Assembly (NCBI GenBank): GCA_021432635.1 | Contig: MU270025.1 | Location: 951,244-1,015,243, forward strand | Origin: Thozetella sp. PMI_491 | Taxonomy: Eukaryota > Ascomycota > Sordariomycetes > Chaetosphaeriales > Chaetosphaeriaceae | Length of the DNA stretch: 64,000 bases | Direction of reading: 5' to 3' | Part shown: in pieces, positions 41,955-64,000 of the stretch | Numbering within the stretch: position 1 is the first letter of the stretch | Layout: every line of letters starts with the position of its first letter | The notes under the pieces: model-generated | What the model was told of the DNA's origin: nothing | The model's database searches: none | The model's input: the letters and a program-made list of their open reading frames with translations, nothing else | Translations under genes and position numbers: made by a program

Positions 41955-43093
41955 ATGCCTGCAGTTCATAGGGTCGCTATAGCGCTTCTGGCGCTGGCAT
42001 CGGGCAGCTTCGCCCAGACGTACACCAGCTGCAACCCCACGACGAATTGTATGTGAAAGCCGGGTGGATGCAGACTTTGGCAATAGCTTGTATACTGACA
42101 TGATTTTTTTGGGCAGCATCCTGTCCCTCGGATACCGGCCTGACGTCGACGAGCTACAGCGTCGACTTCACCCAAGGGTCCGATGATGACAACTGGTCCT
42201 CAGTCGGCACGGGCGATGTGACCTATACCTCGTCTGGCGCTGGCTTCACAATCTCGGAGAAGGGAGAAGCACCCACGATCCAGACGAGCTGGTACTTCTT
42301 CTTCGGCCGCGCTGAGGTCCATATGCGCGCAGCTTCGGGTACCGGCATCGTGAGCAGTGTCGTCCTGGAGTCGGACGACTTGGACGAGGTCGACTGGGAG
42401 TGGATCGGTGGCGACGTCAACGAGGTGCAGACCAACTACTTCGGCAAGGGAAACACCACGTCATACGACCGTGGCGGCACTACCACCGTCTCCGACACCC
42501 AAGGAACTACGCACAACTACACCATCGACTGGACCTCGGCCGCCATCACCTGGTACCTCGACGGCGTGGCTGTCCGCACGCTCGCATATGCCGATGCCCT
42601 CGACGGCAAGAACTTCCCGCAGACGCCGATGCGACTGAAGCTAGGCATCTGGGCTGGTGGCGACAGCGACAACGCGGAGGGAACCATTGAGTGGGCTGGT
42701 GGCGAGACTGACTATGACAACGGACCATACACCATGTATGTTGAGAGCGTGTCCGTCACAAACGCAAACCCGGGATCGAGCTACACATATAGCGACCAGA
42801 CGGGAGACTGGACAAGCATCACCATCGACTCCTCTTCGAACTCGTCCAACGAGGCCTCGAGCGACGCGGAAACTACGACCGGAAGCAGTGTCTCCTCTAC
42901 TACGAGCAGCTCGTCGACCGCGCGTAGCTCCAGCAACGTCAGCGCAACGGCTAGCAGCACCTCCGCCAGCACCAGCAAGACCTCGACTACGTCTGCTGCT
43001 GTGGCAACCTCGACGGTTTCTGCTGCCTCTCCTATGGTGAATAACACTCTCTTCCTCGCCGTCGCTGTGCTTGCGGCCACATGGTTGCTATAA
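41955..43093 (+). CDS. GPI-anchored GH16 cell-wall transglycosidase (CRH type)
   Basis: Two exons, 41955-42048 and 42117-43093, spliced in phase 1 over a 68-bp intron (GTATGT donor, CTGAC branch, GGCAG acceptor), 356 residues. A signal peptide of about 20 residues ends at FAQ. The catalytic GH16 motif reads DEVDWEWIGGD with preceding SDDLDE, and VQTNYFGKGNTT, HNYTIDWT, ITWYLDG and MRLKLGIWAGGD follow as in the CRH1/UTR2 group, which links chitin to beta-glucan in the wall. The last 110 residues are a Ser/Thr-rich stalk, then a hydrophobic tail (TLFLAVAVLAATWLL) for GPI attachment. Complete and probably functional. Confidence 0.93.
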
Positions 43094-43490: not shown

Positions 43491-43582
43491 TATGAGCTAG
43501 TATGGGACCGACGAAGGTATGGTTGAAAGCGTAGGCTAGTATTTAGCTATATTGGCTAGTAAACGAGTGGTTGAAAGAGAGA
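43491..43582 (+). repeat. Dispersed repeat copy A, cut by assembly gap
   Basis: 92 bp nearly identical to 59184-59274 (one substitution and one single-base indel). It ends exactly at the N run, so the gap most likely stands for the unresolved remainder of a repetitive element. Confidence 0.9.
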
Positions 43583-43607
43583 NNNNNNNNNNNNNNNNNN
43601 NNNNNNN
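43583..43607. other. Assembly gap (25 N)
   Basis: Run of 25 undetermined bases. Frames crossing it are not real. Confidence 1.
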
Positions 43608-44952
43608 GATGGAGAAGTTTAAGAAAATTTTGCAAAACAGCGTGGTGGTGGTGGTTGCCCAAAATTTTGGTCCCACTGTCTTATCGTTCGGAAAGCACAG
43701 CGTGTCGATGTAGAGCCTTCCGAAATTGGAAGCCTAGACCCACCATTTCAGAACCCTGTCAGGCATATTTTAAAAAGGAGATAACTACGGAATATATCCT
43801 TCTTAAATCTACTATACATTAACTATATAGCATATTTAACATATACATTATAGTAGATAGTATACATCAAACGCCTCGCGAGATACAATTGCACCCGTGG
43901 TTGACATTTAGAATGAGGCCATGGAACCCCGGACAAAGACAATAGGCTTCTCCTCAAAAGTTGTTTCGTGCGGCTTAACCGTTACGTCTCCATTAACCCA
44001 GGTTTTAGCTGGTTGACCTGGCTTGGTGGCCTATGCCTTCAGGAACGAGATGTCCTTTGCCTTTTGTTCCTCAAGAGCTCGAGGGGGGAAGGGGCCTTCC
44101 GACCAGCTACATAGGTATGTAGCTACCTAAAAGTTGGGTACTTGATGAGTTCAACGGAAGAGCCTTGGAGCAAGAGAGGTGGCCGTTTGTCAAGTGGCTT
44201 TTGTCCAGCCGGGACCTTCTAGCTTCTTAGCGCACTCAAAACACAAGACCTATTTTGCTCGATCTCTTTCTCCGCCCCGCATACATTTCCTCTTCTGATC
44301 TGCTTATGGAATCACAAGCTCAATTCGCGCGAGCCTCCAAATACAAACTGTCTGATCAATTACTCCTATGGCCTCAGCACTTACACTTTTCCGACATTAA
44401 AAATTTACAAGGCCAGAACCAGTTTTTGCAGTCACTTAAACGAATCATAAAGAACCCTCTATATTATCTCCAGAAACACCAAGGGGCTCAAAGGTTACTC
44501 GCCACTCTATGAACGACTCGGTGTTTGTAGGCGCCGACTTCGGCGCGAATAGTGACACAGAGACCGAAGACAATTCTGCCAGCGGCAAAAATGAAGTTTC
44601 GCGGCCCGCCCTAAAATCTAAACATAACTATCTTAATACTAGTCGAACGATGACAAGATGTCCAGACCCTAGCCTAATTAACCTCCTAAGGATTACCTTA
44701 CCAATGTAACTTTTAACACTATGTGGACAGGATAAAATTTAAGCCAGCTACAGAGCTTCCTAACGCATACGTTGCTCTTTACATATTATTGTCAAGGCAC
44801 TGAGTTCAGTAACACCTCCCAGCTCTGATGCTTAATCTGAACCGGTATTGACATTGGAAACAAAAACTGTTAATACAGTTGCGAATCTAATAGCTTATAT
44901 TAGCTTTAACTCTCTTCAGCCCCTAGCAGAGCAGTGTTCGACGAAGGGATGC

Positions 44953-45838
44953 TCACGTAGCGCCGGCCAAAATCAGCTTTGTCGTTTTCATATCAGTCAA
45001 CTTGGATAAAACCAAGAGATAGGAAATCGTAGACACTATGATAACGCATACTCGAGCCCAGACACTGTTGGTAAAAATGCAGATGACCACTGGCATGAGC
45101 AAAACAGTCGTTATGAGCATTAGCATTACGGTTCTGGCAATAGTCTTTATCAACGAGCCCGAATAGATATACATGTCCGGGTCAGTAGATAAGTCGTGCT
45201 GAGCAATCTAACATCTATGGTTAGCTGATCATCTCTGCGAGGGTCAAGAGGAAAGAAAAAAAGGCAGGCGAATTCATCAAAGTCTCGCCGTACCGTTCGG
45301 AAGCCCTTGTAATAGTCAATGAATAGGTCTTCAATCCAGTCCTCAAGTTGCCTAAGCGCGCTATCATTTGAATATGCAAGGCTGGTTAACTCCAGGTGGT
45401 TGTCAAGATACTTCCTCTCGGATCTACTAATGCATCCCTTCGCCCTCAACCATTTCTGCAGACTAGACACGTCTCGTGATAAAGCAGGTCTTAGGCTGAG
45501 CATCTTGCTCGTCCTCTCCACAAATGAGTCTATCTAGTGTTAAATAACGCATGATCAATGGCAATTGCGAAGCATACCGTAATCCTCCAAACTTGACGAA
45601 AGTTCTGTCAAAAGAGAGATCCGAGCTGTGTTTCCATCGCTCCGGCTTTCGCCTAGTGAAAGGGGTGCGGTCTCATTCTGGTCCAGGTCGTCCAAGGTTT
45701 GCTCAAGCTGCGATATTTTGTCTTGTTTTAAGAGAAGAAGCCTGGATCGAAGCCTGAGAAATCGCCTGCAGATGAAAAAGTTGTCGTTGGCGGCAAGTAA
45801 AGCACAGAACCGCGGATAGCCGCTTCTATATTCTTCAA
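44953..45838 (-). CDS. DUF6594-family membrane protein, 5' exon unresolved
   Basis: Fungal protein family with a long helical N-terminal part and three C-terminal membrane spans. Three exons are supported: about 45838-45578, 45529-45294 and 45198-44953 (introns 48 and 95 bp, GT-AG, in frame). Exon A encodes GYPRFCALLAANDNFFICRRF and LRSRLLLLKQDKISQLEQ, the family's hallmark start. Exon B continues the helical part (SLRPALSRDVSSLQKWL). Exon C holds DPDMYIYSGSL followed by hydrophobic spans (MLMLITTVLLMPVVICIF and ARVCVIIVSTISYLLV). The first coding exon upstream of 45838 is unclear: an in-frame TAA precedes an AACAG acceptor, so at least one more exon should lie between 45850 and 46134. It lies beside repeat-rich DNA but no stop is seen in the supported part. 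Confidence 0.7.
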
Positions 45839-46594
45839 CTGTTGACTGTTAGCCCATGGTTGTATGTAGACTGGGATGGATTTTGGTAACTGGATAATTC
45901 AGACTTTTCTTAATCGGACCAGCGCATGCCGTTGGCCCCTGGGCCATTTCCAAGTCGCATCCTGCACCTCGATCTGGTGGCCGTAGCGACCATGGATTCA
46001 GGTTTGAAAGACGAAATCTGACGAATCTCATTAAGACGTGCAGCAGCTCGAGGATTCTTGAGAATACAGGAGCATGTTATGGTCCCACAGGCGATATTTA
46101 ACATGCTAGTCAAGGCAGGAGGTAGTGGAGGCATTTATGCCTTCCTAACAAACGAGTACCGGAGTTGGACCATGTGAGAGACCATCAGGCAGCAATGGTG
46201 GGGCATGCAGCCTACTATATTTCTGCGACAGCTAAAGACTGACAAGGCCAATCATCTGACACAACGTGTGATTCTCCGAAATGTACGAAGAAGTATGCGC
46301 CTTGGTGATAGGGCTTTTCGCTCGGGCACACAATTGACAGGGGGGTCAGAAAATGCTGAGAGTGGGGTCAGGAATAAGTGGGGCAAATATTAGTATTTCT
46401 GACACTAAACACTCTTTTCGCTCTTTGCATTTTGCTGCAGTAGTAAGATTAAGCAGCCCAGAGTTTTATAAATGAGACGGCGTCGCCATGGGGTGGCCAG
46501 TTTAGCGATAGATATTATACCCCAATCGCACAATCGCACATCAAGCCGCACATTTCTCGTGCCGATAGAACCGCTTCCGTTTGCCACTGGTAAA
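45839..46594. other. Spacer with probable 5' end of DUF6594 gene
   Basis: Open frames on the minus strand at 45849-46134 may include the missing first exon. Otherwise nothing recognised. Confidence 0.35.
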
Positions 46595-46951
46595 ATGAGT
46601 CACCCTGAGTGAGCTATAGCTATCTTTACTACGCACCCGGATACTGATATTTCGATTGCTAGTCGTAAAAGTCCCGATCCTCACGTCGTTGGAGGTCGTC
46701 CACGGTACAATGGCAATTCGGTTCGTTGTACCTGTCCAAAGCTGCTTGCTTTCCGACTAACTGCTGTCGAGGAATCGGAGTTCTCGATTGGTGATAAAGT
46801 GTATCTAATAAAAAGCGGGACAAAGACGGGACCCTACAAAGTGGAAACGGTGACCGATAGTGGAAAATTTACACTCTGCGAGGTTGAGACGGGGGAATCC
46901 ATTAATAACGGCGACGTAGTGGAGGCGAGCGACTTGGACATGTCGACTTGA
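46595..46951 (+). CDS. Small beta-rich (SH3-like) protein upstream of caspase-like gene
   Basis: Two exons, 46595-46608 and 46663-46951, joined in phase 2 over a 54-bp intron with GTGAGC donor and GCTAG acceptor; 100 residues. Without splicing there is no start codon in the frame of the conserved part. The second half reads FSIGDKVYLIKSG, GPYKVETVTDSGKFTLCE and NGDVVEASDLD. It alternates hydrophobic and polar residues with glycine turns, as in an SH3-like or KOW-type barrel; similar small fungal proteins share the GDKVYL...GPY...GKYTL pattern, but I know no function. It ends 392 bp before the caspase-like start on the same strand. No signal peptide or membrane segment. Confidence 0.6.
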
Positions 46952-47343
46952 GAGGCGTTTGGTCGAGATTCCACTACCAGAGAATTTCAAGTAGTGCTCA
47001 TTATTAAATGTAGCGGAGATAAACATGCGAGACAGATGCCTTCTCCTAAAACGGGCTGCCACATGTCCACCTAGGAACGGATCCCCAGCGTGACAGGGCG
47101 ATGCTTATGACTCATCACGGGCCTATAGGCGTGCGGCTTGGCCAAGTAGGCAGCCAAGCAGTTCTCGTTAAGCAGGCCGATCAGCTCCCGACTGGTTCCA
47201 GACCTGCAATACAACACCAATACCCAATATTAGACAAAAACCCCGCCTTTGGCTACATTTTGCCTGATCGCAGCCTTACTGTGCGCGACCTGCCCATAAC
47301 CTGCATCTACCCTCCAAGTTCTCGCCAACCTCGGTTCTCCATA
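46952..47343. other. Leader region of caspase-like gene
   Basis: The caspase frame is open back to 47101 without a good start; its first Met in a plausible context is at 47344. This interval likely contains the promoter and 5' leader, with an alternative start further upstream possible. Confidence 0.4.
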
Positions 47344-49401
47344 ATGCCGGATCAGAGCAGCGTCGTGGGGCAATATGCCCTCTTGGTTGGCGTAAATTTT
47401 TATCCGGGCACGTTGCGATCTCTGAAGGGTGCTGTGCGTGATGTGCAAGAGCTTGAAGAGCACCTGATGGGCAGGACCGGGATTGAGATTCAAAGGCTCA
47501 CCGCGAGCTCAACGGAGCCGAACTCATCTCGGCCGGCTGAAGATGCCGAGCACCTGCCCACGTATGATAACTTGGTGTCGAGCCTCGAGAGGATAACATC
47601 GCATTCTGCGCCGGGCGACCTCGTCCTCATCCACTATTCCGGACACGGCACCACGATTCCACCGGCGAGCGATTTATCAGACGGCCCTAATACCTCAACC
47701 GGTGAACTAGCCCTAGTACTACTCCATGGGATGCACGGAACCGACGTAAAATATTTCCGAGGGGCAGAATTAGCAGCTCAGCTGGCCAAAATGGTGAAGA
47801 AGAAGCTTATTGTTACGCTTGTCCTGGACTGTTGCTTTTCTGGAAGCGTAATGCGCAACGATGATTCGATTCGTTTTCTCCCCTATGATTTTTTGGTGGA
47901 CACTGCGCATCCTCCCAAGCCTTGGGAGAGCCTCGGCTGGGGAACTGAAAGCGCCCTTGCAAGTGTCCGCAGCGCTTCCATGCGACAAAACTGGCTGGTC
48001 AATCCGGACGGCTATTGTATACTCACCGCATGCGGGCCGACAGAGGAGGCGAAGGAGATAAAAGTTGAAGGGCAGTACAATGGCATGCTGTCTTACTTTC
48101 TAATCAGGTCGTTCATCAAACGTGGTGGCTTGGGGGGGCGGCAGCAGCACATTTATGCTTATCTGTGTGCCAGATTCAGGCAGAAATACCCATGGCAGAA
48201 ACCAATGCTCTACGGGAACAAACGACTAAGATTTCTCGAGAATGTCAACGGCTGGCCTGATACAGAACCAATTCCGGTCATCACAACCGGAGATATATCC
48301 CCTAAACTACAGGCCGGCGAGGCTCACGGTGTTAGTGAAGGAGACCAGTTTACACTCTGTACAACGGGCACAGCTGATACCTCCGAGGCCGAGAAAGATG
48401 CAGTGATTGTCCAAGTCACCAGTGTCGGCGCGCTGTTGTCTGATTTGAAGATATTGGATGCGGAATCTTTTCCTGCCTTGTTGGGTTTGACGGCAGTAGC
48501 GAGGACGAGATTATCCCTCCGCCGATTCCCCATTCGACTTGAGCTTCGTTTGCCTTGCCTTGATGTCTGGATGGCGGCCCTTGAGGAACGAGCCTCGATA
48601 TATGTCCAATTCGTGGATGATGCCGAGCCCAAACCTTCGTTCTCATTTTACGCAGCTATAATTGCCGAAAATGTGTACGAAATCCGAGACGAGTGGGACC
48701 GAGCGATCCCGGATCTACCTGCCTCTCCGTACAACCTAAAAGAAAACGCGGATTACGTGTTAGATATACTGGAACATTTGACTAGGTTTAAGCTGGCGCA
48801 GAGTTTGGCTAACGAGGAGCCGAAAACTGATTTCCGCCAGTCTTTCGACGGTCGTCTCGTCAACACCAGAACCGGGAAGGCAATGGCTCCGGGATGTTTG
48901 CGGACAGGACCATTTCAGCCGAACTGTTCACATCCGGGTTGCAGAATGGAAGCAGCGCATGGCGATGTTTTAGACCTGCAGCTGAAAAACAATGGGGACA
49001 AGCAGGGTTATGCTCTTCATGTACACGTCTACAGCTTGGGGTCCTGCTGGGAAATAGAAAATCTTCTTGATGCGAACAACGAGGTCGTTCCACCGCGGTA
49101 TAGCAACCAAAACCTAGACTATGAGCTGGGAACGAGCGGGCAGTGGAATAAAAAGATAAGGATGACAGTTCCGGAGGAGCTGCAAGCGAGGAGCTGGCAA
49201 GGATGCGATGACACTATCAAAGTCTTTCTTACCATCCAGCCTACATCATTCACGTGTTTGGAATTGCCAGAGATAGGCAAACTGACCAAGCGACATGGAC
49301 AGTCTGGGACCGAGAAAGTAGTCCCAGATCATCTATCAGAAGATTGGGCAGCACTGAGTTTTCAAGTTCGTACACACGTCAAGCAGATTGCAGAGGTCTG
49401 A
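47344..49401 (+). CDS. Caspase-like protease (peptidase C14 clan) with C-terminal extension, copy 1
   Basis: 685 residues from the Met at 47344 (MPDQSS); the frame is open another 81 codons upstream, but the family start (YALLVGVNFY, strand 1) begins ten residues after this Met. The catalytic dyad is clear: His101 in HYSGHGT and Cys164 in LDCCFSGS, with the strand-2 region LRSLKGAVRDVQELEEHL as in metacaspases and other caspase-like proteins of fungi. The core ends near residue 290. A small beta domain (AGEAHGVSEGDQFTL), a helical piece (DYVLDILEHLTRFKLAQ) and a C-terminal domain with GDVLDLQLKNNG and LHVHVYSLG follow, resembling DUF4384-type sensor regions. This same order recurs in the protease at 54504. 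Faces the CHAT gene tail to tail, 416 bp apart. Confidence 0.85.
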   Translation: MPDQSSVVGQYALLVGVNFYPGTLRSLKGAVRDVQELEEHLMGRTGIEIQRLTASSTEPNSSRPAEDAEHLPTYDNLVSSLERITSHSAPGDLVLIHYSGHGTTIPPASDLSDGPNTSTGELALVLLHGMHGTDVKYFRGAELAAQLAKMVKKKLIVTLVLDCCFSGSVMRNDDSIRFLPYDFLVDTAHPPKPWESLGWGTESALASVRSASMRQNWLVNPDGYCILTACGPTEEAKEIKVEGQYNGMLSYFLIRSFIKRGGLGGRQQHIYAYLCARFRQKYPWQKPMLYGNKRLRFLENVNGWPDTEPIPVITTGDISPKLQAGEAHGVSEGDQFTLCTTGTADTSEAEKDAVIVQVTSVGALLSDLKILDAESFPALLGLTAVARTRLSLRRFPIRLELRLPCLDVWMAALEERASIYVQFVDDAEPKPSFSFYAAIIAENVYEIRDEWDRAIPDLPASPYNLKENADYVLDILEHLTRFKLAQSLANEEPKTDFRQSFDGRLVNTRTGKAMAPGCLRTGPFQPNCSHPGCRMEAAHGDVLDLQLKNNGDKQGYALHVHVYSLGSCWEIENLLDANNEVVPPRYSNQNLDYELGTSGQWNKKIRMTVPEELQARSWQGCDDTIKVFLTIQPTSFTCLELPEIGKLTKRHGQSGTEKVVPDHLSEDWAALSFQVRTHVKQIAEV

Positions 49402-49817
49402 TTCGGACTAGGTAGATCAAATTCACAAGGGTGGCCAAAATTTAAGTGGAAACTGACCCTATTTTGGTATCTTCAAGTGGTAAAGTTCCGAGACGGTTCA
49501 GCAAAGCCATCCTGTTGGGATGGTTTGTACGCGTGTACTTGTGGATGCTTTCGAACAAATCGGATTGCCCTTTCAAAGCCGTCTTTCTTAACATCCGTTT
49601 CTAGCTAAAAACTGACACTAGTGTAAAAGAATGATTGTATGGCGGGTTTCTCGCTTCCATGGTGATACGGATTGTATAGGACAAACATGGTGCATGGAGG
49701 GGGCCGATTGTAGCTTACTCGATACGTGATGAAGCGCAGGCCAAATGGGCCTTTTCTAACGACTTCTACACGGCCACGTACAGACTTCCTTATAACTTGG
49801 CCAAGACCAAAGCCACC
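49402..49817. other. Convergent 3' flanks of caspase-like and CHAT genes
   Basis: 0.42 kb, no gene seen. Confidence 0.4.
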
Positions 49818-52800
49818 TCAGGGGCCAAAATGTACAAAAGGTGCCCACAAAAACGGGCTATCAGGGTAATTCGCCTTCAAGCACATCACGGCATACCTCA
49901 GCGCCTCGGCAGCCCGCCTGCCAATCCCCAGGTCTTCTGTCTTCGTGACTTTCCTTTGATTTGTCGGTTCCTTTGTGCCAAGGAGCCGCGAGTAAAAAAG
50001 CTCAGCCAGAGCGACGCAGATGTCGTCATCCACCGACCACAGCGAAGCCACCACCTCCATAAACCCAGCCATCTGGAACGCGCTGGCCATGTGAAGTCCC
50101 TCATCACTCAGTCCATGCGTTCTCACCTCAGCAGTTGAGCAAGCTGAGAGGAAGGCGATGCGGGCGCTGCCGTCGCTTCCCGTGACAGGGTGCGCGGCCA
50201 CGACCTTGGCCAGCTTCGCGATAGTGAGACGATCCACGACGGGAACACTTGGACGGCCGACGACATCTCCATCGCTGTCCCGCTGCAGCATCAGATGACT
50301 GCGGGAGGGATCTTCCGCGTCTGAGGAGCCGTGGCAGGCGAAGTGAACAATTTGTGAGTGAAGAATCTGGCCAAGTACATCACGAACACAGGGTTGAGGA
50401 AGGCGCAAGACCTTGGATGGTTTATGAAGTGAGGAGGAGGAGGCTGAATCAGGTGCGGATGCCCAAGCAGTAGCGACTACCTTCTCAATAGCATCGCACT
50501 CGCGTTGAGCTCCTGGGAGAGGCTTGTGCCCGGGAGTAGTTGACATGGTAACAACCAAGATGGTGTTGTCGTCGCGAGCCTCGCTGCTTTTCTCTACTGC
50601 GGCTGTATTGGTCCTGACGGACTTTTCCCGAGCGTAGCCAAGGGTCTTGATCGTTGGAGTGTAGGAAGATATTATGTAGTCCAGGGCGCCTGCTGTGGCA
50701 TCGCCAGCGGCATGGAAGGGGAACGAGCTGGCGATACCAGATCCTATCCACCAAACCCGTCTTAGATCCTCTTCGTTAGGATCACCTACGAGACCCATGA
50801 GCCTAAGTTCATCGAGAACTGGCTTTACGCAGTGAACCCAGAGCCACGCCAGCTGATCGAGTTGTAAATCGTCCTCGTCAGAGTCATCGCCTCCTATGTC
50901 TCGATCACGGTAGTCTACTTGACGGTTGGATCTGTACCGTCGGAACTCGTATTGTATGGGAGGGGGTGCAGTGGCCGGTGACAGACCGGGTAGTGGGAGC
51001 GATTTTATTACATTGTGAGAGACAATGATGGCGTCGGATGCGATGTCGGTGACATTGACAACGACGATGGGACCTTCGACGGCGTGGCGCTTCATCTCCT
51101 CGACGGTTGGACCCAGGAGGAATCGTTCCTGGCCAGGCACGGTTTGACGAATATCATGTATGCAGGCGTCGATGGCGTACACGGCCTCTCTTCGCTCCTT
51201 GAAGAGTCGTTCCCTCCCAACCGAGTCCCATCCGTCGATAGGCATGGAAGCCTGTGTTTTCAAGGTCCTATAGCGCTGGGCTAACGTGCCATCCATGCTC
51301 TGCAGGCGGGATAGGTCGTCGAGGCCGTCAATGGTGTACCCGATGATGAGGCCTCGACCGAGCTCAAGCAGCTCAACCGCCTTCTCCGTGTTGCCTAGCT
51401 TGAGGAGTACGGCACAGGCATCCGCGGCGAGGCCCGAGATCTGAATCACTGCATGCTGCTGATCTTCACGTGCAGCATACCGGCTGCAGATCTGTGGGAT
51501 CAGCTTGACGGCAGCCTCAACGACCACCATGGATTGATTCCAGTCCTCAGAATTTCTTAGAAGTAGGAGAGCAGTGCGCAGTGCCAACATTCGGGTCAAA
51601 GCCACTCCGAGTGGTTGTTCGGCAGCCTCCAGATAGTACTTGAGTGCTTCGTCGAGGTATTTGTCGTCGCGCGACAGACCCGCAATTCCTACTAAGCTAT
51701 TGGCGAGACGTATCAAGAACGCCGATCGGTCTGGGTGGCCCCTGAGAGTCAAATCAACTGCTCCTCTTGCCAACTCAACCGCCCGTTCAATATCCGGTGG
51801 GTTATGCTCTTCGTCATATCTCCTTTCAAGCAGCACTCCCAAGTTGCTCATGCAATTCACCCTTGCCGGGTCTGTCTCTGCTGCATCTTCGACAGCACGC
51901 TGGGCTAGCTGAATAGCTTCTTCAAGATCTCTGGTCGACTTGAATCGGCGGTACCTCGACTCAAGTCTATTGACGAGGTTATTCACGAAGCCTGATCGAC
52001 GAGGGTCGTCGTTAGGGGTTGAGTTGACGGCTCGTCTTCCAATATCGATGGCTTCTTCGAGATCCTTGACGTCAAGCAGCCGCGAGTATCGCATACCATG
52101 TTTGCTCCCAAGGTTGTTCAGCCTGCTGGAGAGGTTCCGGTCATTTTCAGGTGTCGAGTTGACAGCATCCTGTGCAATCCGAACGGCCTCGTTGATGTAG
52201 TGGACCTCGCCAGTGAATTCAAAAAGCCTCTGAAGGGAGTTGGCTAAGTTGATGAGACCACTGGCACTCCCGGGACCACTCGATGGCATCAAAGCCACTG
52301 ATTCCTGGACCAGCTCAATCGAATGGTGAAGCATCTGCACGTTGCCCTTTTGTGTATAATTGACTTGTAACAAAGCTCCTAGGTTGGCCGAGTATCGCGC
52401 GCGATCAGTGTCAGCATATGGGGCCACGGAAACGGCCTCTCTGGAGAAGGCGATTGCCTTTTCAAGATCCTTCTCATCACCGCTATGTGCCCATCTGTCG
52501 CCAAGCATTGTACCCAGACTGTCAAGCAGAGTTGCCCGTCCCGGGTGCGTCGCAGAAATGCTCTCGACAGCGTCCTGTGTCTTCTGGATTGCGTCTATGA
52601 GATCTTGGGGATCCCGCAATTCTCTGTAGCGATCCTCCAGGCTTTCTCCAAGTTCGCCGAGGGCAGTCGCCAACCCATCACTGCCAGACTCAAAGAAGCT
52701 TACCGCCATTGTTCTAGCTTCAATGGTTTTTCCGAGAAGCTGCTTCTCTCCCGTGAGCGTATACTTATGCCGAAAGCAAGTTGCTAGTTGCTTCCAACAA

Positions 52801-54041
52801 ACCGGGAGGTCTGGGTCCCCCTCTGACATCAGGCCAATCGCCTTTGTCGTTGCTACTATGGCTTCCTGGATATCCATAACATCATTCGACAGCTTGCACA
52901 TCTTTATAGCAAGGGTTGCTAAAAGCATCGAGTAGGTGGCTCGTTCCTGGTTGTTGGCTGACGCCAGGGCCGAGATATCTCGGGCGATTTGGAGAGCTAA
53001 GTCGAGATCACTCTTGCCGGACTTCTCTCGATAACGAAGCTCTAGAACGGTTGCTAAATTTACCATCCTGTCTAGCCGCTTCGAATGATTGAGTGGGGTC
53101 AAGTCGAACCCATTCTGTATGGCTCGCACGGCGTCCTCAAGATGAATCGTTGCCTCTGTCTCCTGGTACAGATATTTCAGGCCGATGCCAAGGCTGTCAA
53201 GCCATCCTGCTCTGTTTGCATGGCCCTCCGGAGTCAAATTAACAGCTCTCTGAAGTGATTCGACGGCCTCTTGCAGAGCGGCAGTATCGCAGCTCTGCTT
53301 ATATCGCCCTGTCAGCATGAGGCCTAGATTGTTCAACCTGCCCGCGAGGTTTAACACGTTTTCCGGAGATGTTGTACCAATGGCTTCTCGCGCAGCAGAA
53401 ATGGCCTCCTCTAGGTCTTCTTCTCGCTCTGTGCGCTCATGCCGAATGTGAAGCTTGCTAGCGAGGTTGGTCAGGTAGGAAGGCCGGTTTGGGTGGTCGT
53501 GAGGCGTTTTAGCAATAACCTCTCTTGCCAACTGAACCGCACCTTCCAGGTCCACTAGACTATTGGTGTACTTGTAGAGGAGAGTAATTTTGTTCGACAG
53601 GCCGTTTAGCAGGGCGCCTTGCATTATGGGGTCATCTAAGTCATAGCGTACCGCGCGTCTCGCCTCGTCAATGGACCTTTCAAGGATACTCCTATCCGAA
53701 GTGCTTGCGAAATGGAGCTCTAGAGCGTTTGAAAGGGTATCCAGTAGTCCAGCTTTGGCTGGGTCATCATCTCTGACCAAGTCGACGGCCTGCTGTGCGA
53801 CATGCACCGCTTCCTTGGCGAAGACAGCCTCTGCGGAGTATTGATATTGGCTCTGGTGAAAAACCGATAGGTTGCTCAGAAGGTTCGGCAGTAAATTATG
53901 GCCCTCGGGTACCATATGCACCGCTAATGTTGCTGCGAAGACGGCTTCATTGAGATGCAGAGGGTCGCCAGTGCTCTGATAAAGCTCGTATTCTGTCACG
54001 GCATTGTACGAGGCATCTTCTGCAAACTTGACTGGGTCCAT
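49818..54041 (-). CDS. TPR-CHAT protease, 1407 residues
   Basis: Single exon. Residues 1 to about 1030 consist of about 18 degenerate TPR-like helical pairs of 50-60 residues (LEEAIxxAREAV...P....LNNLGxxLxxRY), the repeat form usual before fungal CHAT domains. The CHAT domain (caspase HetF associated with TPRs) occupies about 1090-1407. Catalytic His1237 lies in VHFACHGSSD and catalytic Cys1301 in LSACSTAE; the following HMASAFQMAGFMEVVASLWSV and PFLWAPFVHFG are the conserved CHAT end. All key residues are present and the frame is unbroken over 4.2 kb, so the gene is probably functional. CHAT proteins cleave substrates in bacterial and eukaryotic death pathways; the fungal substrate is unknown. 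Shares a 462-bp divergent promoter region with the caspase-like gene at 54504. Confidence 0.93.
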   Translation of the reverse strand: MDPVKFAEDASYNAVTEYELYQSTGDPLHLNEAVFAATLAVHMVPEGHNLLPNLLSNLSVFHQSQYQYSAEAVFAKEAVHVAQQAVDLVRDDDPAKAGLLDTLSNALELHFASTSDRSILERSIDEARRAVRYDLDDPIMQGALLNGLSNKITLLYKYTNSLVDLEGAVQLAREVIAKTPHDHPNRPSYLTNLASKLHIRHERTEREEDLEEAISAAREAIGTTSPENVLNLAGRLNNLGLMLTGRYKQSCDTAALQEAVESLQRAVNLTPEGHANRAGWLDSLGIGLKYLYQETEATIHLEDAVRAIQNGFDLTPLNHSKRLDRMVNLATVLELRYREKSGKSDLDLALQIARDISALASANNQERATYSMLLATLAIKMCKLSNDVMDIQEAIVATTKAIGLMSEGDPDLPVCWKQLATCFRHKYTLTGEKQLLGKTIEARTMAVSFFESGSDGLATALGELGESLEDRYRELRDPQDLIDAIQKTQDAVESISATHPGRATLLDSLGTMLGDRWAHSGDEKDLEKAIAFSREAVSVAPYADTDRARYSANLGALLQVNYTQKGNVQMLHHSIELVQESVALMPSSGPGSASGLINLANSLQRLFEFTGEVHYINEAVRIAQDAVNSTPENDRNLSSRLNNLGSKHGMRYSRLLDVKDLEEAIDIGRRAVNSTPNDDPRRSGFVNNLVNRLESRYRRFKSTRDLEEAIQLAQRAVEDAAETDPARVNCMSNLGVLLERRYDEEHNPPDIERAVELARGAVDLTLRGHPDRSAFLIRLANSLVGIAGLSRDDKYLDEALKYYLEAAEQPLGVALTRMLALRTALLLLRNSEDWNQSMVVVEAAVKLIPQICSRYAAREDQQHAVIQISGLAADACAVLLKLGNTEKAVELLELGRGLIIGYTIDGLDDLSRLQSMDGTLAQRYRTLKTQASMPIDGWDSVGRERLFKERREAVYAIDACIHDIRQTVPGQERFLLGPTVEEMKRHAVEGPIVVVNVTDIASDAIIVSHNVIKSLPLPGLSPATAPPPIQYEFRRYRSNRQVDYRDRDIGGDDSDEDDLQLDQLAWLWVHCVKPVLDELRLMGLVGDPNEEDLRRVWWIGSGIASSFPFHAAGDATAGALDYIISSYTPTIKTLGYAREKSVRTNTAAVEKSSEARDDNTILVVTMSTTPGHKPLPGAQRECDAIEKVVATAWASAPDSASSSSLHKPSKVLRLPQPCVRDVLGQILHSQIVHFACHGSSDAEDPSRSHLMLQRDSDGDVVGRPSVPVVDRLTIAKLAKVVAAHPVTGSDGSARIAFLSACSTAEVRTHGLSDEGLHMASAFQMAGFMEVVASLWSVDDDICVALAELFYSRLLGTKEPTNQRKVTKTEDLGIGRRAAEALRYAVMCLKANYPDSPFLWAPFVHFGP

Positions 54042-54503
54042 GAGGGGCGCAAACTATTCCTCTGTGAAGGTAAGTCGATGGATGAAGAGGCGCACACGAC
54101 CAGATTTTGTTCTTTGGCATAAATCTAATTTTTAAGGATACCATTTTTTTGGGCCGCGGCGAAATCGACCAAATCAACGTTGATTAGTTATGGCCTGCAT
54201 GATGCAGCCTTCTTCGAGTCCAAAGAGTCGCTGTTCATGCCTGAAGTCCCAGGCATTCTACATCGTTAGGCAGCCTCGTGCACGAATGACAGAAGGGGGG
54301 GGGTCGTTTTGTCGGACCAAAATTGGTCCGAGATTTCCTCAGGACTAATCCACGCGAAAAGGCAACACCTAGACCTGTTTCGTGTCCGTGGAGTTATGTA
54401 AAACCGCGCCATATACCTCCGCCGAACGACTCAGACCCAACAACCTAGTCCTGTCGTATGTTTTAACGCGAGCGCACACATTTGAGGCAGAGAGCGCTTC
54501 TCT
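54042..54503. promoter_or_regulatory. Bidirectional promoter region between CHAT and caspase-like copy 2
   Basis: 462 bp between the two start codons, which diverge. A G-run lies at 54295-54303. A GGTCCGA-type sequence occurs at about 54312 and again, inverted, at 54328 (TTTTGTCGGACCAAAATTGGTCCG), an imperfect palindrome that could be an operator. No factor assigned. Confidence 0.45.
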
Positions 54504-56588
54504 ATGACGGATAAGAAGGCTCTGCTTATCGCCAGCCCGTTCGGAGGCTTGCGTGGGCCGCTGAATGACATTGAGAGAATGGACAGGGTTCTCCGAGGCA
54601 TGGGCTTCGAGACATTTCGGTGCAGTGGGCCTAACGCTACTCGAGCTGGAATACTTGAGGCCTGGGAACAGCTCATCAATAAGGTTAGCGCGGATGACGC
54701 CGTTGTCGTCTACTATTCTGGACACGGCGGGCTAGTCACGTCTACTGAGCCTCCAGACCGTTCGTTCGAGGCCCCAGATCCGCCAACGCCTTGGCGCTAT
54801 CAGTTTCTCGTCCCCATGGACTTCGGCGAGTTTGGCAAAGTAGGCGGCGGCGATAACAACGATGAGGACAGCAGGACTGACTTCCGTGGTATCCTCGACG
54901 TCGAGCTATCGGCCCTCGTGAAAGATACCACCGCCCGTAGCCCTAACTTCACGCTCATCCTCGATTGCTGTTACGCGGGGCGTATGGCGCGTGATCCGGC
55001 AGCCCCCGACATAGTGATGCCCCGCACCATCTCCACCACTACTACAGGCAGCGACAGCTGTGGCGGGCGCTTCGCCGCCGTTGCGCGCCACGTCGACCGC
55101 CTCTGCAGACAGGGCCGCCTACCCGCGGACTTGCACGTCGAGCAGAATCCCTACGCTGTACGTATAGCGGCCGCTGCGGTAGGAGAGACGGCGTGGGAGT
55201 ATTGTAGCGAGGTCGCTGGTGAAGCCAATGTTTGGCATGGCGCCTTGACTGACGCGCTGCTATGCACCCTCGAGGGGGGGAATAGCGGGATTTTGGGCGG
55301 CGCAGGTGATAGTGGTTCTCATACAGCTATGTTGTCGTGGCGAACCGTAATGCTGCGGGTAGCCGAGCTGGTCCATGTGCGCTTCCCATACCAGCACCCA
55401 GAGGTAGCGGGACCGGCAGACCGAATACTATTCCAAGTGCGGGAGTTTGTCAGCAGGGTGGTTCATATCCGAATGGAGGGCAATAGCACGGCATCAGCTA
55501 TCATTCAGGCTGGGCGCGTTTCGGGCGTACGCGAAGGGAACATATACAGTGTGGTGCCATTTGGGATAGATGAGGCGGCAAGAGGAGCATCAGCCAAGGT
55601 ATTGGGAGAGGCAAGGGTCACTTCGGCTACGGCTTTCAAGGCCATGGTCGACTTTATACCGCGCGATCCGGTCGGAGGTGATAAGCTCCCAACCGAGGGA
55701 GCGTTGGTCTTTCTCAAACACGACGCACTATACAAGTGGCCGGTGGTCCTGCCATCTGCCTTGGAGCGGTTGGCGGCGGCAGTGCACAAATCAAGATTTG
55801 TTAGACCCCGAAATCTTGACGACGGAAATTTGGTCTTGGCCGAGTTTCGCCAATGGCCTGACCGCACTGCTTTGTACAACAATCGCGGCCGCGAAATTGC
55901 TTCAGTATCTAGCACTGAAGAGTCCCTCGGGCTGGAGAACCGGCTTGTTGAAACTGCCGAGCAACTCGCACGCGGTCAACACCTGCTATCTTTGAGCAGC
56001 GAGGACGCCCATCTGCTTCAGCACAGGGTTGAGGTGAGATTTGGCCTTGTAGATGAAGGCGGCCACCGGGGGAGAACAATTAGGCAAGACGGCACCGACA
56101 GCATCTTCGAAGGCGACAAGGTCTACATCGAGCTAATTAACCGGGGGCTAGAGACAATCCACGTGTGGATTTTTGACGTCAACGCGGCGGGGCAGATAAA
56201 ATTGGTCTCAAAATCCAGCCCTCGGGGGGTCGAATTGCCATGCGGTCGAGTGGAGGTTCTTGGGGCCGCCAGGCACCGGCCTGGACTGAAGGGCCTGGCG
56301 GTTGGATGGCCGACCATCCTCTCTCAGTCAAAAGAGGAACCGGTTGAGGAAACACTAGTGTTTATCCTTACCAGCTCGCCCGTGGACCTCAGCCACCTCT
56401 GCCAAGCCAACAAGCCTGCTGGGAGCAGGATGAAGCTTACTTTCCTCGAGAAATTTACTTCCGCAATTGTGGTAGGAGAGAGCCGCAAAGCCACGGCAAT
56501 TGAAGACGACGACAAAATAGTCCGCTATTCCACCATTCATATCCCGATGCTTTTGTTTCCAAAATCTCCTCTGATAGATCCGAAATAA
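54504..56588 (+). CDS. Caspase-like protease (peptidase C14 clan) with C-terminal extension, copy 2
   Basis: Single exon, 694 residues. Starts with KKALLIASPFGGLRGPLNDIERM, the first strand and following helix of the caspase fold. Catalytic His74 lies in YYSGHGG and Cys156 in LDCCYAGR. After the core (to about residue 310) come AGRVSGVREGNIYSVV, VETAEQLARGQHLL and GDKVYIELINRGLETIHVWIFD, matching in order the beta, helical and DUF4384-like parts of the protease at 47344. Pairwise identity outside the motifs is low, so the duplication is old. No lesion. Divergent to the CHAT gene. As with other fungal caspase-like proteins, cleavage preference could be basic or acidic and is not known. Confidence 0.87.
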   Translation: MTDKKALLIASPFGGLRGPLNDIERMDRVLRGMGFETFRCSGPNATRAGILEAWEQLINKVSADDAVVVYYSGHGGLVTSTEPPDRSFEAPDPPTPWRYQFLVPMDFGEFGKVGGGDNNDEDSRTDFRGILDVELSALVKDTTARSPNFTLILDCCYAGRMARDPAAPDIVMPRTISTTTTGSDSCGGRFAAVARHVDRLCRQGRLPADLHVEQNPYAVRIAAAAVGETAWEYCSEVAGEANVWHGALTDALLCTLEGGNSGILGGAGDSGSHTAMLSWRTVMLRVAELVHVRFPYQHPEVAGPADRILFQVREFVSRVVHIRMEGNSTASAIIQAGRVSGVREGNIYSVVPFGIDEAARGASAKVLGEARVTSATAFKAMVDFIPRDPVGGDKLPTEGALVFLKHDALYKWPVVLPSALERLAAAVHKSRFVRPRNLDDGNLVLAEFRQWPDRTALYNNRGREIASVSSTEESLGLENRLVETAEQLARGQHLLSLSSEDAHLLQHRVEVRFGLVDEGGHRGRTIRQDGTDSIFEGDKVYIELINRGLETIHVWIFDVNAAGQIKLVSKSSPRGVELPCGRVEVLGAARHRPGLKGLAVGWPTILSQSKEEPVEETLVFILTSSPVDLSHLCQANKPAGSRMKLTFLEKFTSAIVVGESRKATAIEDDDKIVRYSTIHIPMLLFPKSPLIDPK

Positions 56589-58550: not shown

Positions 58551-61500
58551 TGGGTGAGGCCAACTACTTTGACTTAAGACTTAATATTGACCTGACTAAA
58601 CTAGCTACGGAGCGTAGGGGAGCTGGGGAGCCTTTATATAGGGCTTCCCAGAGCAGGTGGTATGGACCACGCGAGAGCTCCCCACACGTGGCAGTGGTGC
58701 TCGGCAACCAGTGGTATATGAATCCATATAACTATGGATCCATATATAGCTACAACAGTACAATCATATACTGTGGCATTTTAGCATGTGCCAAGCCTCT
58801 GTTAGGCTTCTAACGCCGTTGTCATTCACCTAACATAAGATTATAATTGTCTTTTATGAGCCCTAGCGGCTGTCTGTAAGCACCCCGATGAATATTGGCA
58901 TAGTGTAACTTACTGGTTTAGAAATTAGTTGAAAGAGGTGCCGGCCGACGCTCTATGCCTAGAAAACTAGGTAGGCTAGAGTTGGCTGGATTTTATATGT
59001 AATTCTCTACAGAAGTCTCTATATATTAGAAAAGGAGTGATTAATAGGATAAAGTTAAAGAGTTATACTTGTAATAATACTATTCCCTTTATGGGGGAAC
59101 TTAGACTGTAAACAATAATGTGATGGAAGTCGTTGACAGTGTGAGCACTTGAGCCTTGATTACGTGACTATCCTAAGGATCTATATGAGCTAGTATGGGA
59201 CCGATGAAGGTATGGTGAAAGCGTAGGCTAGTATTTAGCTATATTGGCTAGTAAACGAGTGGTTGAAAGAGAGATGCTTGCTTGACCAGCTGTTCTGGAA
59301 GCTGGCTGGCTGGCCAGCTATTTATCCTCGTACGGCAGCTGGATCTCGTCGGCTCTCGGGGAGGCCGTTCGTCATCCTAAATCTAAATACAGGGCCGTAT
59401 CAAGGCAGTGGCAACTAAAAAGCCTGTAAATATCCATACTAGTAAATATCCAGTAAAGACCGTGTGCTTTGACCTAGGTCAGCTGGTCTTTCCATATTAG
59501 GAAGTAGGTCCATTCAACAATCTAGCTTTAGCAAGCCGCTTCAGCGCTGGCCATTCTATACTTTATCATAAAACTCCGGGACATTTGAACTAGATATTCC
59601 AAGTACCTGCTCTTAAGCAAAATATAATAATATAAAGCCTTGCTGTCTTCTTTCTCCTTCTACTTAATTATCTTATTCTTATTCTTAAGCAAGATATTAT
59701 AACTAAACTTAAAGATATAAAGAAGTTCCTTGGTAGATAAATTGTTGAGATTAAGCAAAGGACTGATATACCTTGCTTGGCCTATAACCTTATTTATATT
59801 AGCTAGAGCTTTAACAATGGCTTTCTTAATGTAGTATTAGCCTTTAGAGGTGAAAAGAGGGACTGGAATAGATTTTATCTTGGCAATAGGTATGTTTGAG
59901 TATGTTGTGTAAGGTTTGGTAAGTGGAGCAGCACGTTAGGCGAGGAAGTTGTTTAAGGTCTAAGATGGCAGGCTTACACAGCAGCTGCTCTCTTATCCTC
60001 TTAGGCCTGGCCCATCAGAGAAAGGTTGTTGCTGATTTAGTCATCTTACAGGGCTGCAATAAATTTTTCTAGAGCTTCTATACCATGGTATAGCCAAAGC
60101 TACCACAAGCTCGCCATGGTGTAGCTGAACCTTACTGCGACTATACATTGTTGGGAGCGCACGATCATGGTGGCTTTTGTCAACTTTAATGGGCGTTGCA
60201 CGTGACGCTGATTGTGGCTCGTCAGTCCTGACAAGCTCTGCATATAATGGTCGAAGATGAGGCCCTGCGAGCCCTGAGGGGCTGCATCTGTCAACGATCA
60301 ATTGTAATCATTACTGGATTTTCGCTGTGCTTGGAGATACTAGGTATGGTATTTACTGTGTGGATTGACGGGTTTTCATTTCTTCTGTGTGCGCAGCCCA
60401 ACTTTTGAGGCTTGCTAAAGATAAATTACCTTAGTTGCATAATAATACTCTTAAGACAAACTAGGTAAACCTCTTAGCTCTAGAGAAGAATGCTACTAGC
60501 TATGCTTTGATGGAGATCTTGCCTATTATGTGTCTTGAACTAGCTAACTTACCCTCGGTTGGTTTGCTAGGACCTCTTTCCTCGCCATCGTTGTCTGGCA
60601 AAGAGCGGGCTATTGCGGCTATATCCCTCACTTTCTCTAATATCTTAGCCGTTTGGCCTAGCTTACAGTCACTTGTTCGTGATATCATTATTTATTGTTT
60701 CAATGGGACTTTATACTAGGTGACAATACGAGTTTAAGGCTCTCCAACAGGCACCTTAGCGTACTGCTTTGATAAAGAGAGTGCAAAGTATCCCATGGTC
60801 CGGAGAGACAAGTTAGAAATCTCTATTATAACACATTGCAGAAGCCCTAGCTGTTTTTTTTTGTTTTTTTTTTCGACAGGGTTCCAAACTGTTGTCTATT
60901 CGTGATTGCGGCGTTGCGTTTATATATCTTAGCGAGACGAGACTGTTTCTCTATAATATCTGGCCAGAGCGAGGTACTAATGCTCTGCAAGGACTCTATG
61001 TATGGCATGTCAAGGTCACAGGTTCCCTGTGGCGAGCCTCCACTTTTGGGGGGATTTTTTTCTATGATTTTTTTATATTATTTTTCTTGATTTTATTTGT
61101 TTATCTTTGGTTGCAGATGGCTCGTTTGCACGTGGCTCGCTTGCCTCCACTTTGAATGAAAGTGGAGCAAATCGTCTCGGTCTTCAAGATCTAACCCATT
61201 CCACAGTCGAGCATACCGTACTTTACCACTCTTCTAGTTCGATACGTAAATCGCTGTCAACAATGCAAGGCTCAAGAGAATATTGACAAACTGTTGACGT
61301 AAGGGAAGTGCAATGATGCCAACGAGATCGCTGCCCAAGTACCCCAGGAAACGAGACATTATATTTCCATCCTTCCAGGAATTGCGACCTTGAATGGCCG
61401 ACTATTCCGAAACTGGCTGGTGGCATTCAGCAACTTGGCGAGTTTATTGGTGTTGCCTGGGAACTGTGCAAAGATGTCATTCCCAAGCTACCATTTAGAG

Positions 61501-61766
61501 AGTGTGTTCGTCAGAGGGATGCAAAGAACTGCGAATTACATATACGTGGTCGCGAGCCGTTGATTCTCAGCATCCCCTTGTGTTGATGGTGAGGGGTGGA
61601 GCTGCCACGGTGTACCCCTGTCTGTTTCGTGGCTGAGAAGACGAGACGCTTTGACCAACAACGCGCTCCAGGATGGAGTGCTTACGAGGATGCCTAATCT
61701 CGGGGAGGCTTTCGAGATGTGATGATGTACCATGCAAAATCCGAATGTAATAATGCGTAGGGAACA
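58551..61766. other. Repeat-rich, AT-rich stretch without supported gene
   Basis: 3.2 kb of low-coding DNA between the PTR2 relic and the NACHT receptor. Contains repeat copy B (listed), long A/T-rich runs (59600-59900, 60840-60880, 61055-61090) and hairpin-forming sequence (CTCCACTTT...AAAGTGGAG at about 61145-61168). Composition and absence of frames suit old, mutated transposon remains. Confidence 0.5.
59184..59274 (+). repeat. Dispersed repeat copy B
   Basis: 91 bp, 98 percent identical to 43491-43582. Here the sequence continues past the shared end into a CTGG-rich segment (59275-59330), which shows what the gap at 43583 may hide. Confidence 0.9.
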
Positions 61767-64000
61767 ATGGCATCGGAAGATGATCGGACGGACGATGGAG
61801 CCAGTAGTGAGACCAAGAAGCCCAATTTCCTAAAGAAGTTGTTACACCTGGGGCGAAAGTCGTCCGAAAAGGCACTTGCCGAGAAGAGAGATGCCGCAGA
61901 AAAGGGTTTGTTCGACAATCCGAGCGAGTTGGACGCATCAACTCGTGCCTGGGCCAGGGCCTATGAAGGACTAAGGACGAGTAAGAAGGATCCCATGGAG
62001 GCCTATGATGAAGTCTTACGCAAGCAGTAAGCAGGTGAGAGCGCCATCGGGAGCATCTCTTATTCTCCCTCCTTGCTAACCACATAACGCAGAGACAATG
62101 GCAGAGAGTTCCCTCGCTAAGTTTAGTCTGGGCTTGACACCCGATGCATTTGGTCGGGCTAATGCTCATACTGCTACCCGGATCTCCAGCCTGAAAGCTG
62201 TGACGAGCTCGGCACAGAATAAAGCCAACAAGCATGCCAAGTTGGAGGGGCACATCGTGGCGGTCGGCGAATTTGGCAAGAAAATGCAGGACACCATCAG
62301 CGCGGCACTAACAGCCTACCCGCTCGCAGGTATGGCGTGGTCCGGTCTCTGTGCAGTTGCGCCATACATTGCGCAGCCATTGAGTTCGCGCAAAGATATG
62401 CGCGACGGCCTGCAGCATGTCATAGACCAGCTGGGCTGGTATATGGATCTCGTTCGCGTGCTTCTCCGAAGTAGCTGGGAGAAAGGCGAAGAGTTTGCGC
62501 AGCTTCAAAAGACGCCTGAAGCGTGCGTTGTCCAGCTGTACGAGAAACTGGTGCTTTACCAAGTCCATGTCGTCGTCGAGGTCTTTCACACCAACAAGCT
62601 TGTGAAACTGATAAAGGTATATCTCGGTCAGACAAACTGGGCACAGGAGATCGAAGATATCAAAAACCTTGAACAGTCAGTCGTCAAGCGCATCTCAGAG
62701 GGCCTCAAAGTGGAGGTGGCCGAACACCTCCGGGGACTCTCCAGCCACGTAGTCTCCATCGACGAAACACTCCTAAGAATAGAGAAGGGCGCCGAGGAGG
62801 GTCGCATCCGGGAAGCGGTCGAGCGCCACGGGGATCTTATTGGCAAGTTCAAGGCCATTGACTACGAATACACGATGAAGATGAATCCACTGCGAGTCGA
62901 AGGGACATGCGAATGGATATGTCAGCATCCCGGCTTCAAGAGTTGGCCGGACGGCCCAGATAAGATGCTCCTGGTTTCAGCCGATCCGGGTTGCGGGAAA
63001 TCGGTGTTAGCAAGGTACCTGGTTGAAGACTTTCTCCCGCGACAGAAACCCGAGTCGGCCGTTTGCTACTTCTTCTTCAAGGAGCAGCTGAAGCCCGAAA
63101 ACCGAGAACAAACGGTAGCACTATGTGCCATCTTACACAGCCTCTTCACCCAGCGACCGCTCCTGGTGGATGCATGCAACAAGGCAGTGAGAGAAGCCGG
63201 AAATCGGCTGCAGTCTGACTTCACTGCGCTCTGGGATATTTTTGAGAAGGTCGTGACCGACAAGACTGCGGGGCCAGTTCTTGTTGTTCTCGACGCCCTG
63301 GACGAGTGCAATCCCAAGGAGCGAGAGCGCTTACTTGGGTGGATAAACATTCTACTATCCCGACCGGAAAAGGCTTCCGGAGTAAAGTTTCTGTGTACAA
63401 CAAGAGGGTATCCGAGAATTGCCGACCTTTTCGATGCTCTTGGTACTAGCAAAGTACGCCTGTCGGGGGAAGATAAGATTAATGCTGGGAAGATCCAGAA
63501 GGAAATCGGGCTCGTCGTCGAGCATCGCCTGAAAGAGCTAGCCAAGCCACCCAAGAGCCTGGTAGAGTCACAGATCCAGTCAATTCGGAATGCCCTTGGC
63601 AGCAATGGGCAGACTCAAAGGACATATCTGTGGGTGAAACTCATGTTCGACGCACTGGAGGAGGAGCTCGACAATGCTGCGGACGACATAGCTACGCTCG
63701 TCGCCAAGCTCCCGCAGACACTGTCGGGAGTATACGAGACGCTTCTCAGAAGAGTCAAGAGCGATGATTTTGACGCAGTTCAGATCGTATTACGTCTCGT
63801 GATAGCCGCAAACAGGCCGCTGACGCTGCGGGAACTCAATACTGCTCTCAAGGTCCGAGGCAAGATTGGGGTGAAGAACGAGGCTGCCCTTCACCTTGTC
63901 CCCGACGATAATTTCCGGAGATAGGTTAGCTCAGCTTGTGGCTTCTTCCTCTCAGTCCACGATGAATTTGTGTACTTCATTCATTTGACTGCCAAAGAGT
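61767..64000 (+). pseudogene. NACHT-type NLR receptor with two in-frame stops, 3' end beyond the window
   Basis: Fungal NLRs sense non-self and trigger cell death. Exon 1 (61767-62034) and exon 2 (from 62093) join in phase 1 over a 58-bp intron with GTGAGA donor, GCTAAC branch and CGCAG acceptor. Exon 1 contains TAA at 62028-62030; reading across it gives RKQ-stop-AETMAESS, matching the receptor N-terminal domain. No donor before the TAA gives a consistent phase. The N-terminal helical NWD-NACHT domain (WARAYEGL, YPLAGMAWSGLCAV, WYMDLVRVLL) is followed by a NACHT with P-loop SADPGCGKS and Walker B LVVLDALDEC, then YLWVKLMFDAL and LPQTLSGVYETLLRRV. After NFRR comes TAG (63922-63924), and the same frame continues with ACGFFLSVHDEFVYFIHLTAKE-like sequence to the window end. 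Both stops could derive from CAR codons. Confidence 0.82.

Follow-up and report, generated by a model that had tools for sequence, protein, structure and literature searches.

A candidate multi-protease module in the fungus Thozetella sp. PMI_491: a TPR-CHAT protease grouped with two caspase-like lineages and DUF6594 and SH3-like partners

Do three neighbouring open reading frames (ORFs) of the fungus Thozetella sp. PMI_491, all encoding caspase-fold proteases, form a functional unit, and if so, of what kind and what age? The window analyzed here is a stretch of 64,000 nucleotides from contig MU270025.1 (C11:951244-1015243 of the 72.3-Mb assembly, in our numbering), in which these ORFs encode a caspase-like protease (C14-A, P0001), a TPR-CHAT protease (P0002) and a second caspase-like protease (C14-B, P0003), 766, 1407 and 694 amino acids long. 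A preliminary description made from the sequence had outlined a block of the three proteases and a small SH3-like gene and had proposed that they act together. All of these genes are present, but the outline missed a DUF6594 gene to the left, so that the gene order reads DUF6594(-), SH3-like(+), C14-A(+), CHAT(-), C14-B(+). We compared this block with the rest of this one fungal genome and with prokaryotes. Our findings suggest, with a probability of about one half, that it is a genuine module of several proteases, conserved and of the cell-death or non-self-recognition kind found in fungi, with a predicted CHAT-to-caspase mechanism. The proposal of a functional unit is strongly supported by the recurrence of the association at other loci of the genome and in bacteria, and the conserved module appears to be genuinely larger and older than was first described.

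Profile searches of the genome returned 14 CHAT hits (PF12770) and 15 C14 hits (PF00656); once exon hits were merged and a copy on contig C20 found by P0001 was added, 14 C14-family genes remained. A decayed C14-A-like fragment on contig C22 and CHAT-like pieces matched only by P0002 (for instance on C117, with stops) were left out of the counts. Relatives of C14-A, at 35-46% to P0001, are located on contigs C9, C20 (with stops) and C7, and a relative of C14-B on C132, and every one of them has a CHAT gene no more than 3.7 kb away. Within 5 kb, a CHAT gene accompanies 6 of the 14 C14 genes, namely all four C14-A and both C14-B members and none of the eight others. The binomial chance of such a count is 1.4e-12, or 2e-10 if the two caspases of the window are counted once, both figures being approximate because they assume independent genes and a genome laid out in a single line; clustering by chance was thus ruled out. 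Seen from the other side, a C14 gene is located no farther than 10 kb from six of the 14 CHAT hits.

The position of CHAT varies among these loci: the C9 locus carries a CHAT(+) and a second CHAT(-), CHAT lies beyond DUF6594 on C7, and on C132 the order is C14-B(+), then CHAT(-). At locus L029 (C9:1190649-1199998), a second TPR-CHAT gene of 1204 amino acids is followed by an open frame that extends over 1903 amino acids or more. The C20 CHAT gene holds a copy (C20:232700-233045), 97% identical, of the repeat of about 345 bp described at the end of this text and is therefore disrupted, and its adjoining C14-A carries stops. The C14-B/CHAT pair of C132, a small contig, is followed by a HET-domain gene (59.8 bits; C132:20810-21625).

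The two smaller genes keep a fixed place next to C14-A. An all-against-all comparison of the ORFs of six loci and the window, with presumed repeats and antisense ORFs set aside, yielded DUF6594, SH3-like, C14 and CHAT as the recurring families. At all four C14-A loci (window, C9, C20 and C7), a DUF6594 gene lies 1.2-1.6 kb upstream of C14-A with an SH3-like gene between them, although on C7 the SH3-like match is weak (E 0.018), with place and strand as expected. In the window, the exon ORFs of the DUF6594 gene match PF20237 with 68, 34.3 and 34.3 bits, the gene probably starts in a short upstream exon, and hydrophobic stretches in its last exon read as about two transmembrane helices by hydropathy. 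The SH3-like ORF has no Pfam match, and its fold name is a label taken over from the preliminary description. Between the window and C9, DUF6594 is the best conserved member: its exons have an amino-acid identity of 61-70%, whereas the value is 47% in C14-A, 39% in the CHAT domain and 37% in the SH3-like core; it is not so between the window and C7, where DUF6594 shares 31-52% by exon and C14-A 35%. No paper on DUF6594 turned up in the open literature. Two more SH3-like copies, on C116 (at the contig end) and at C20:138.5k, adjoin DUF6594 with no C14 match, and a further copy (C7:161651) has no DUF6594 neighbour among those listed. The copy at C20:138.5k (locus L061, C20:137054-140221), near a DUF6594 gene at C20:135850-136711, adjoins a DUF7580-like gene (22.5 bits, below the cut-off), and the SH3-like and DUF6594 pair may be a portable unit with varying partners.

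The association extends to bacteria. A genome-collection scan that combined a caspase alignment, one active-site motif and tblastn led us to keep 80 of 284 confirmed C14-A-like loci, 54 of them cyanobacterial, and many of these match P0001 over residues 92-727. Only Pfam-confirmed CHAT neighbours were counted, because our home-made CHAT profile, when iterated, came to match caspases generally. On this basis, the flanks (up to 8 kb) contain CHAT at 17 of the 26 non-cyanobacterial loci and at 22 of the 54 cyanobacterial ones, or 39 of 80 overall, which is a lower bound because only candidates flagged by the home-made profile went to Pfam. The base rate came from 16 loci in 15 genomes, mostly picked because CHAT had already been seen there, and all loci were for that reason assigned the density of the genome richest in CHAT; even so, the chance probabilities are 3e-10 for the non-cyanobacterial and 1e-6 for the cyanobacterial set. 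Relatives of C14-B comprise four genes in 3 of 200 genomes drawn from one actinomycete order. These align over P0003 residues 4-662 at most, with three of the four reaching residue 636-662, and all four have a CHAT hit 3.5-8.1 kb away. Because bacterial relatives of both C14-A and C14-B also have CHAT nearby, we consider the CHAT-caspase pairing to be old. In the actinomycete genome G011, two C14-B genes fall together with three CHAT hits in one stretch of about 43 kb (its contig C7:117854-161261).

The caspase of the Nucisporomicrobium locus L141 groups with fungal C14-B (support 100/100). The CHAT of this locus sits with the fungal sequences, apart from six other bacterial CHATs (100/99), in an unrooted tree where its row is long and oddly composed. 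A larger CHAT tree with 25 bacterial rows, in which some second CHAT rows rest on the home-made profile alone, leaves the placement open. At five other bacterial loci (L111, L113, L130, L134 and L137), a conserved gene with invariant His and Cys lies between CHAT and C14. Three of the five match peptidase C25 (E 3e-6, 2e-4 and 9e-3; one over the cut-off, two weak), so this gene possibly belongs to a further caspase-clan protease family, and bacteria too would have three-gene, perhaps four-gene, caspase-clan blocks. At locus L093, sigma-like and zinc-finger-like genes, both sub-threshold matches, fill the intermediate place. The C14 caspases encoded beside CHAT in cyanobacteria, Acidobacteria, Chloroflexi and actinomycetes resemble those of the block in full-length architecture and CHAT neighbours, but differ from them in neighbours that include nSTAND1/WD40, C25-like and sigma-like genes.

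The three long ORFs of the block read through without interruption and their His/Cys dyads are intact, as had been claimed. In an alignment of P0002 residues 600-1407 with 16 bacterial CHATs from 15 loci, the H1237 and C1301 columns are invariant. Pfam assigns P0002 a CHAT domain (121 bits, over the curated cut-off) and TPR matches that include TPR_10, which gives it the TPR N-terminus and the CHAT domain with a His/Cys dyad of TPR-CHAT, separase-like proteases. No SAVED domain is found among its eight Pfam families at E 0.1, and phmmer against PDB sequences returned nothing at E 0.01. A bacterial CHAT-neighbour profile gave TPR and similar repeat proteins among the matches listed (60 of 165). 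An AlphaFold model of residues 600-1407 (predicted local distance difference test, pLDDT, 63; predicted template modelling score, pTM, 0.58) places Csx29 at Foldseek ranks 1-4 and 6 (8eey, E 2e-12) and separases from rank 8, with SAVED-CHAT a weak match at rank 26 (8tl0). Identity to Csx29 is 10-13% and TM-scores are 0.31-0.39, so the structure matches are fold-class assignments only. A check for a pseudo-caspase domain in the same model revealed a mixed helix and strand region at residues 393-566 of the fragment, with 248 of 808 residues under pLDDT 50.

Both caspases exceed the curated C14 cut-offs in Pfam (54 bits for C14-A and 46.6 bits for C14-B) and have a C14 p20 domain with His/Cys, as metacaspases do. 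H182, D243 and C245 of C14-A are invariant in an alignment with 38 bacterial relatives and P0003. Its true start is probably Met82 (47344), because relatives start near there and residues 1-86 fall under pLDDT 50. The AlphaFold model (pLDDT 65, pTM 0.56) has matches to metacaspases, to MALT1 and to a caspase-fold protein from Geobacter. No Pfam family is assigned to the C-terminal parts of either caspase; the C-terminal regions of C14-A contain strands and helices, and sub-threshold matches in its relatives (DUF4384 at 12.1 bits in the C31 paralogue, FlgT_C in the C9 copy) were not used for classification. PADLOC recognized three C14 proteins by its generic "caspase" model only and gave no match for two TPR-CHAT queries, of which the C9 query is incomplete at its end.

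Trees separate these caspases from two presumed metacaspases of the genome (L009 and L010), represented by single ORF pieces, which carry a Pro/Gly/Gln-rich N-terminus, a feature that we take to be the mark of type I metacaspases. The latter form their own clade (100/100) beside a C14-A clade (100/99) and a C14-B clade (100/100), with no resolution of the deeper order. C14-A and C14-B therefore appear to be distinct from the presumed type I metacaspases, and their origin as recent tandem duplicates was ruled out by their placement in separate lineages. Metacaspases have an acid S1 pocket and prefer Arg/Lys. By this rule, D243, an invariant Asp that stands two positions ahead of the catalytic Cys, suggests that C14-A would cleave after Arg or Lys and not after Asp.

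These features are consistent with a proteolytic cascade. A cue from non-self or from damage would be sensed by the TPR part of the CHAT protein; the CHAT domain, which resembles those of Csx29 and separase in its build, would be switched on and would cleave and activate one or both caspase-like zymogens, C14-A and C14-B. The activated caspases would then cut cell proteins. The DUF6594 membrane protein would probably be their target or anchor on site and the SH3-like protein possibly an adaptor, and the outcome would be the death of the compartment. Fungal cell-death research has centred on gasdermins, HET and HeLo proteins, and metacaspases of disputed role. If the cascade is real, fungi would possess a cascade of caspase-fold proteases whose initiator can be named and for which there are candidate effectors, the DUF6594 family would become testable, and fungal cell death would be tied to bacterial immune protease cassettes. 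A bolder version of the scheme, in which TPR-CHAT acts on two caspase lineages and these on DUF6594 as a dedicated substrate of a non-gasdermin executioner class, the CHAT/C14-B pair moved as one piece between actinomycetes and fungi, and the whole is homologous, pair by pair, to bacterial CHAT-caspase cassettes, seems to us rather unlikely.

Such a cascade would fit bacterial precedent. Steens et al. (2024, Science) are said to have found that SAVED-CHAT of type III-B CRISPR activates a prokaryotic caspase. The block shares with that system a CHAT protease encoded beside a caspase, but it is fungal, its CHAT protein has TPR and no SAVED match, and it contains two caspase lineages with DUF6594 and SH3-like partners. 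According to the accessible parts of the following reports, SAVED-CHAT acts through a proteolytic cascade in type III-B CRISPR defence (PMC11229360), and Csx29 is a TPR-CHAT protease that is activated by target RNA and cleaves the product of a neighbouring gene (PMC10028731); P0002 resembles Csx29 in its TPR and its CHAT domain with His/Cys, as well as in its top Foldseek matches. Similarly, the bacterial conflict systems described by Kaur et al. place caspase-domain proteases in multi-gene conflict neighbourhoods, but with EACC1/EACC2, VMAP, alpha/beta-hydrolase or TRADD-N as partners in the available text (PMC7159879, PMC8195603); where "CHAT" occurs in PMC8195603, it is part of author names. 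The openly available literature, including the accessible parts of these papers, yielded no description of a caspase-CHAT-DUF6594 unit, subscription papers being mostly outside this scope.

Among fungal systems, the closest are gasdermin-protease clusters, in which a CHAT or S8 protease is encoded beside a gasdermin in a group of two or three genes. As far as the accessible text goes, one such fungal pair of genes encodes a TPR-CHAT protease and the gasdermin that it activates (PMC12881547; also PMC10197012), and a CHAT gene is a het (incompatibility) gene in Aspergillus fumigatus (PMC11138114). The block is likewise a fungal gene cluster with a putative TPR-CHAT sensor protease, and P0002 combines CHAT with a repeat domain (TPR_10) as the proteases of those clusters do, but its partners are the two caspase-like proteases together with the SH3-like protein and the DUF6594 membrane protein. 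The established CHAT-gasdermin pairs would favour the idea that CHAT activates an unlinked or unrecognized gasdermin, with the caspases as accessories. Speaking weakly against it, no gasdermin-like ORF recurs at the compared loci and none of 10 ORFs has such a Pfam match, in searches that included no gasdermin profile or model; we consider this idea improbable.

The gene trees bear on how the block was assembled. With all rows, the C14-A tree reads ((window, C20), C9), C7; without the decayed C20 rows, window and C9 group together (98/93) and {C7, C9} is rejected (p 0.046, approximately unbiased test). In the CHAT tree without C20 rows, the window CHAT lies outside {C7, C9a, C9b, C132, C6, C36} (98/97), and its pairing with either C9 CHAT is rejected (p 0.017 for C9a and 0.009 for C9b), though the C14-A of C9 is close kin. 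With the C20 rows kept, the p-values were 0.042 and 0.032. All these p-values are weakened because the tests followed a view of the first trees. The conflict would be expected of a composite locus, in which a DUF6594/SH3-like/C14-A module that lost or replaced its original CHAT came to lie beside a CHAT/C14-B module with a divergent promoter, and CHAT would serve mainly C14-B. The 462 bp between the start codons of CHAT and C14-B, possibly a shared promoter to judge from the ORF coordinates, and the C14-B relative beside a TPR-CHAT gene at L141 point the same way. Nevertheless, p-values of 0.009-0.046 make this a modest conflict, long branches are present, and every other C14-A locus has an adjoining CHAT too, so C14-A also goes with CHAT; a composite origin is a doubtful explanation, if one to be taken seriously. 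The same disagreement between the CHAT and C14-A trees makes co-duplication alone an insufficient explanation, and we ruled it out; the locus orders also differ. Mere paralogy, that is, block duplication in fast-evolving regions with low rearrangement and no functional coupling, could account for the single clade of C14-A copies and for the constant order and strands of DUF6594, SH3-like and C14-A at all four loci. It is hard to reconcile with the 35-47% identity of the C14-A copies, with a CHAT gene that switches strand and side and whose tree conflicts with theirs, with two separate caspase lineages that both adjoin CHAT, and with a CHAT-caspase pairing above base rate in bacteria, and we judge it decidedly improbable. 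In an NG86 comparison, third codon positions differ most in 17 of 17 pairs, and no synonymous rate (dS) is obtained for 14 of the 17, so that no ratio of nonsynonymous to synonymous rates (dN/dS) is claimed.

Several observations weigh against the module as we read it. No C14 hit lies within 10 kb of eight of the 14 CHAT hits, which implies that CHAT can work without these caspases, although undetected partners are possible beside these eight genes, the sequence read having covered a minority of their flanks. Conversely, solitary caspases with no CHAT hit occur on C31 (with the same architecture) and on the contig numbered C14, and the decayed C14-A-like copy on C22 (126239-126736, six stops) has neither a CHAT nor a DUF6594 hit near it. 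About 30 of the roughly 34 DUF6594 genes in the genome lie away from caspases, and contig C132, with its C14-B locus, has no DUF6594 match. Finally, the models of C14-A and of the CHAT fragment are of only moderate confidence.

Table 1. Genes and intergenic gap of the block, in window coordinates.
Feature	Position	Strand	Remarks
DUF6594 (PF20237) gene	44953..45848	-	at least 3 exons (ORFs 45848-45555, 45533-45150, 45207-44953)
Small SH3-like protein gene	46613..46951	+	conserved core 46766-46948; relatives in genome
C14-A caspase-like protease (PF00656), 766 aa, P0001	47101..49401	+	H182/C245; probable true start 47344
TPR-CHAT protease, 1407 aa, P0002	49818..54041	-	TPR repeats, then CHAT domain (residues 1064-1406), H1237/C1301
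Gap, 462 bp	54042..54503		separates divergent CHAT and C14-B start codons
C14-B caspase-like protease, 694 aa, P0003	54504..56588	+	other lineage; H74/C156

The surroundings of the block (Table 1) gave no confirmation of what had been proposed. The preliminary description placed it between broken PTR2 and NACHT genes and took its intact frames as a hint of selection, but a Pfam scan of 10 window ORFs, eight of them outside the block, gave no PTR2 match and no other family at E 0.01. The NACHT gene, at 61761-63924 with NACHT_N and NPHP3_N matches, possibly continues past the end of the window. An intron may lie between its initial piece and the long ORF, in which case the pieces would be intron-split and not broken. 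To the left of the block lie a glycosyl hydrolase family 16 gene (42218-43093, 152 bits) and, within 43547-43822, a run of about 27 N bases that reads as X. A repeat of about 345 bp at 59178-59523, also found at 43491-43582, has at least 41 matches in the genome.

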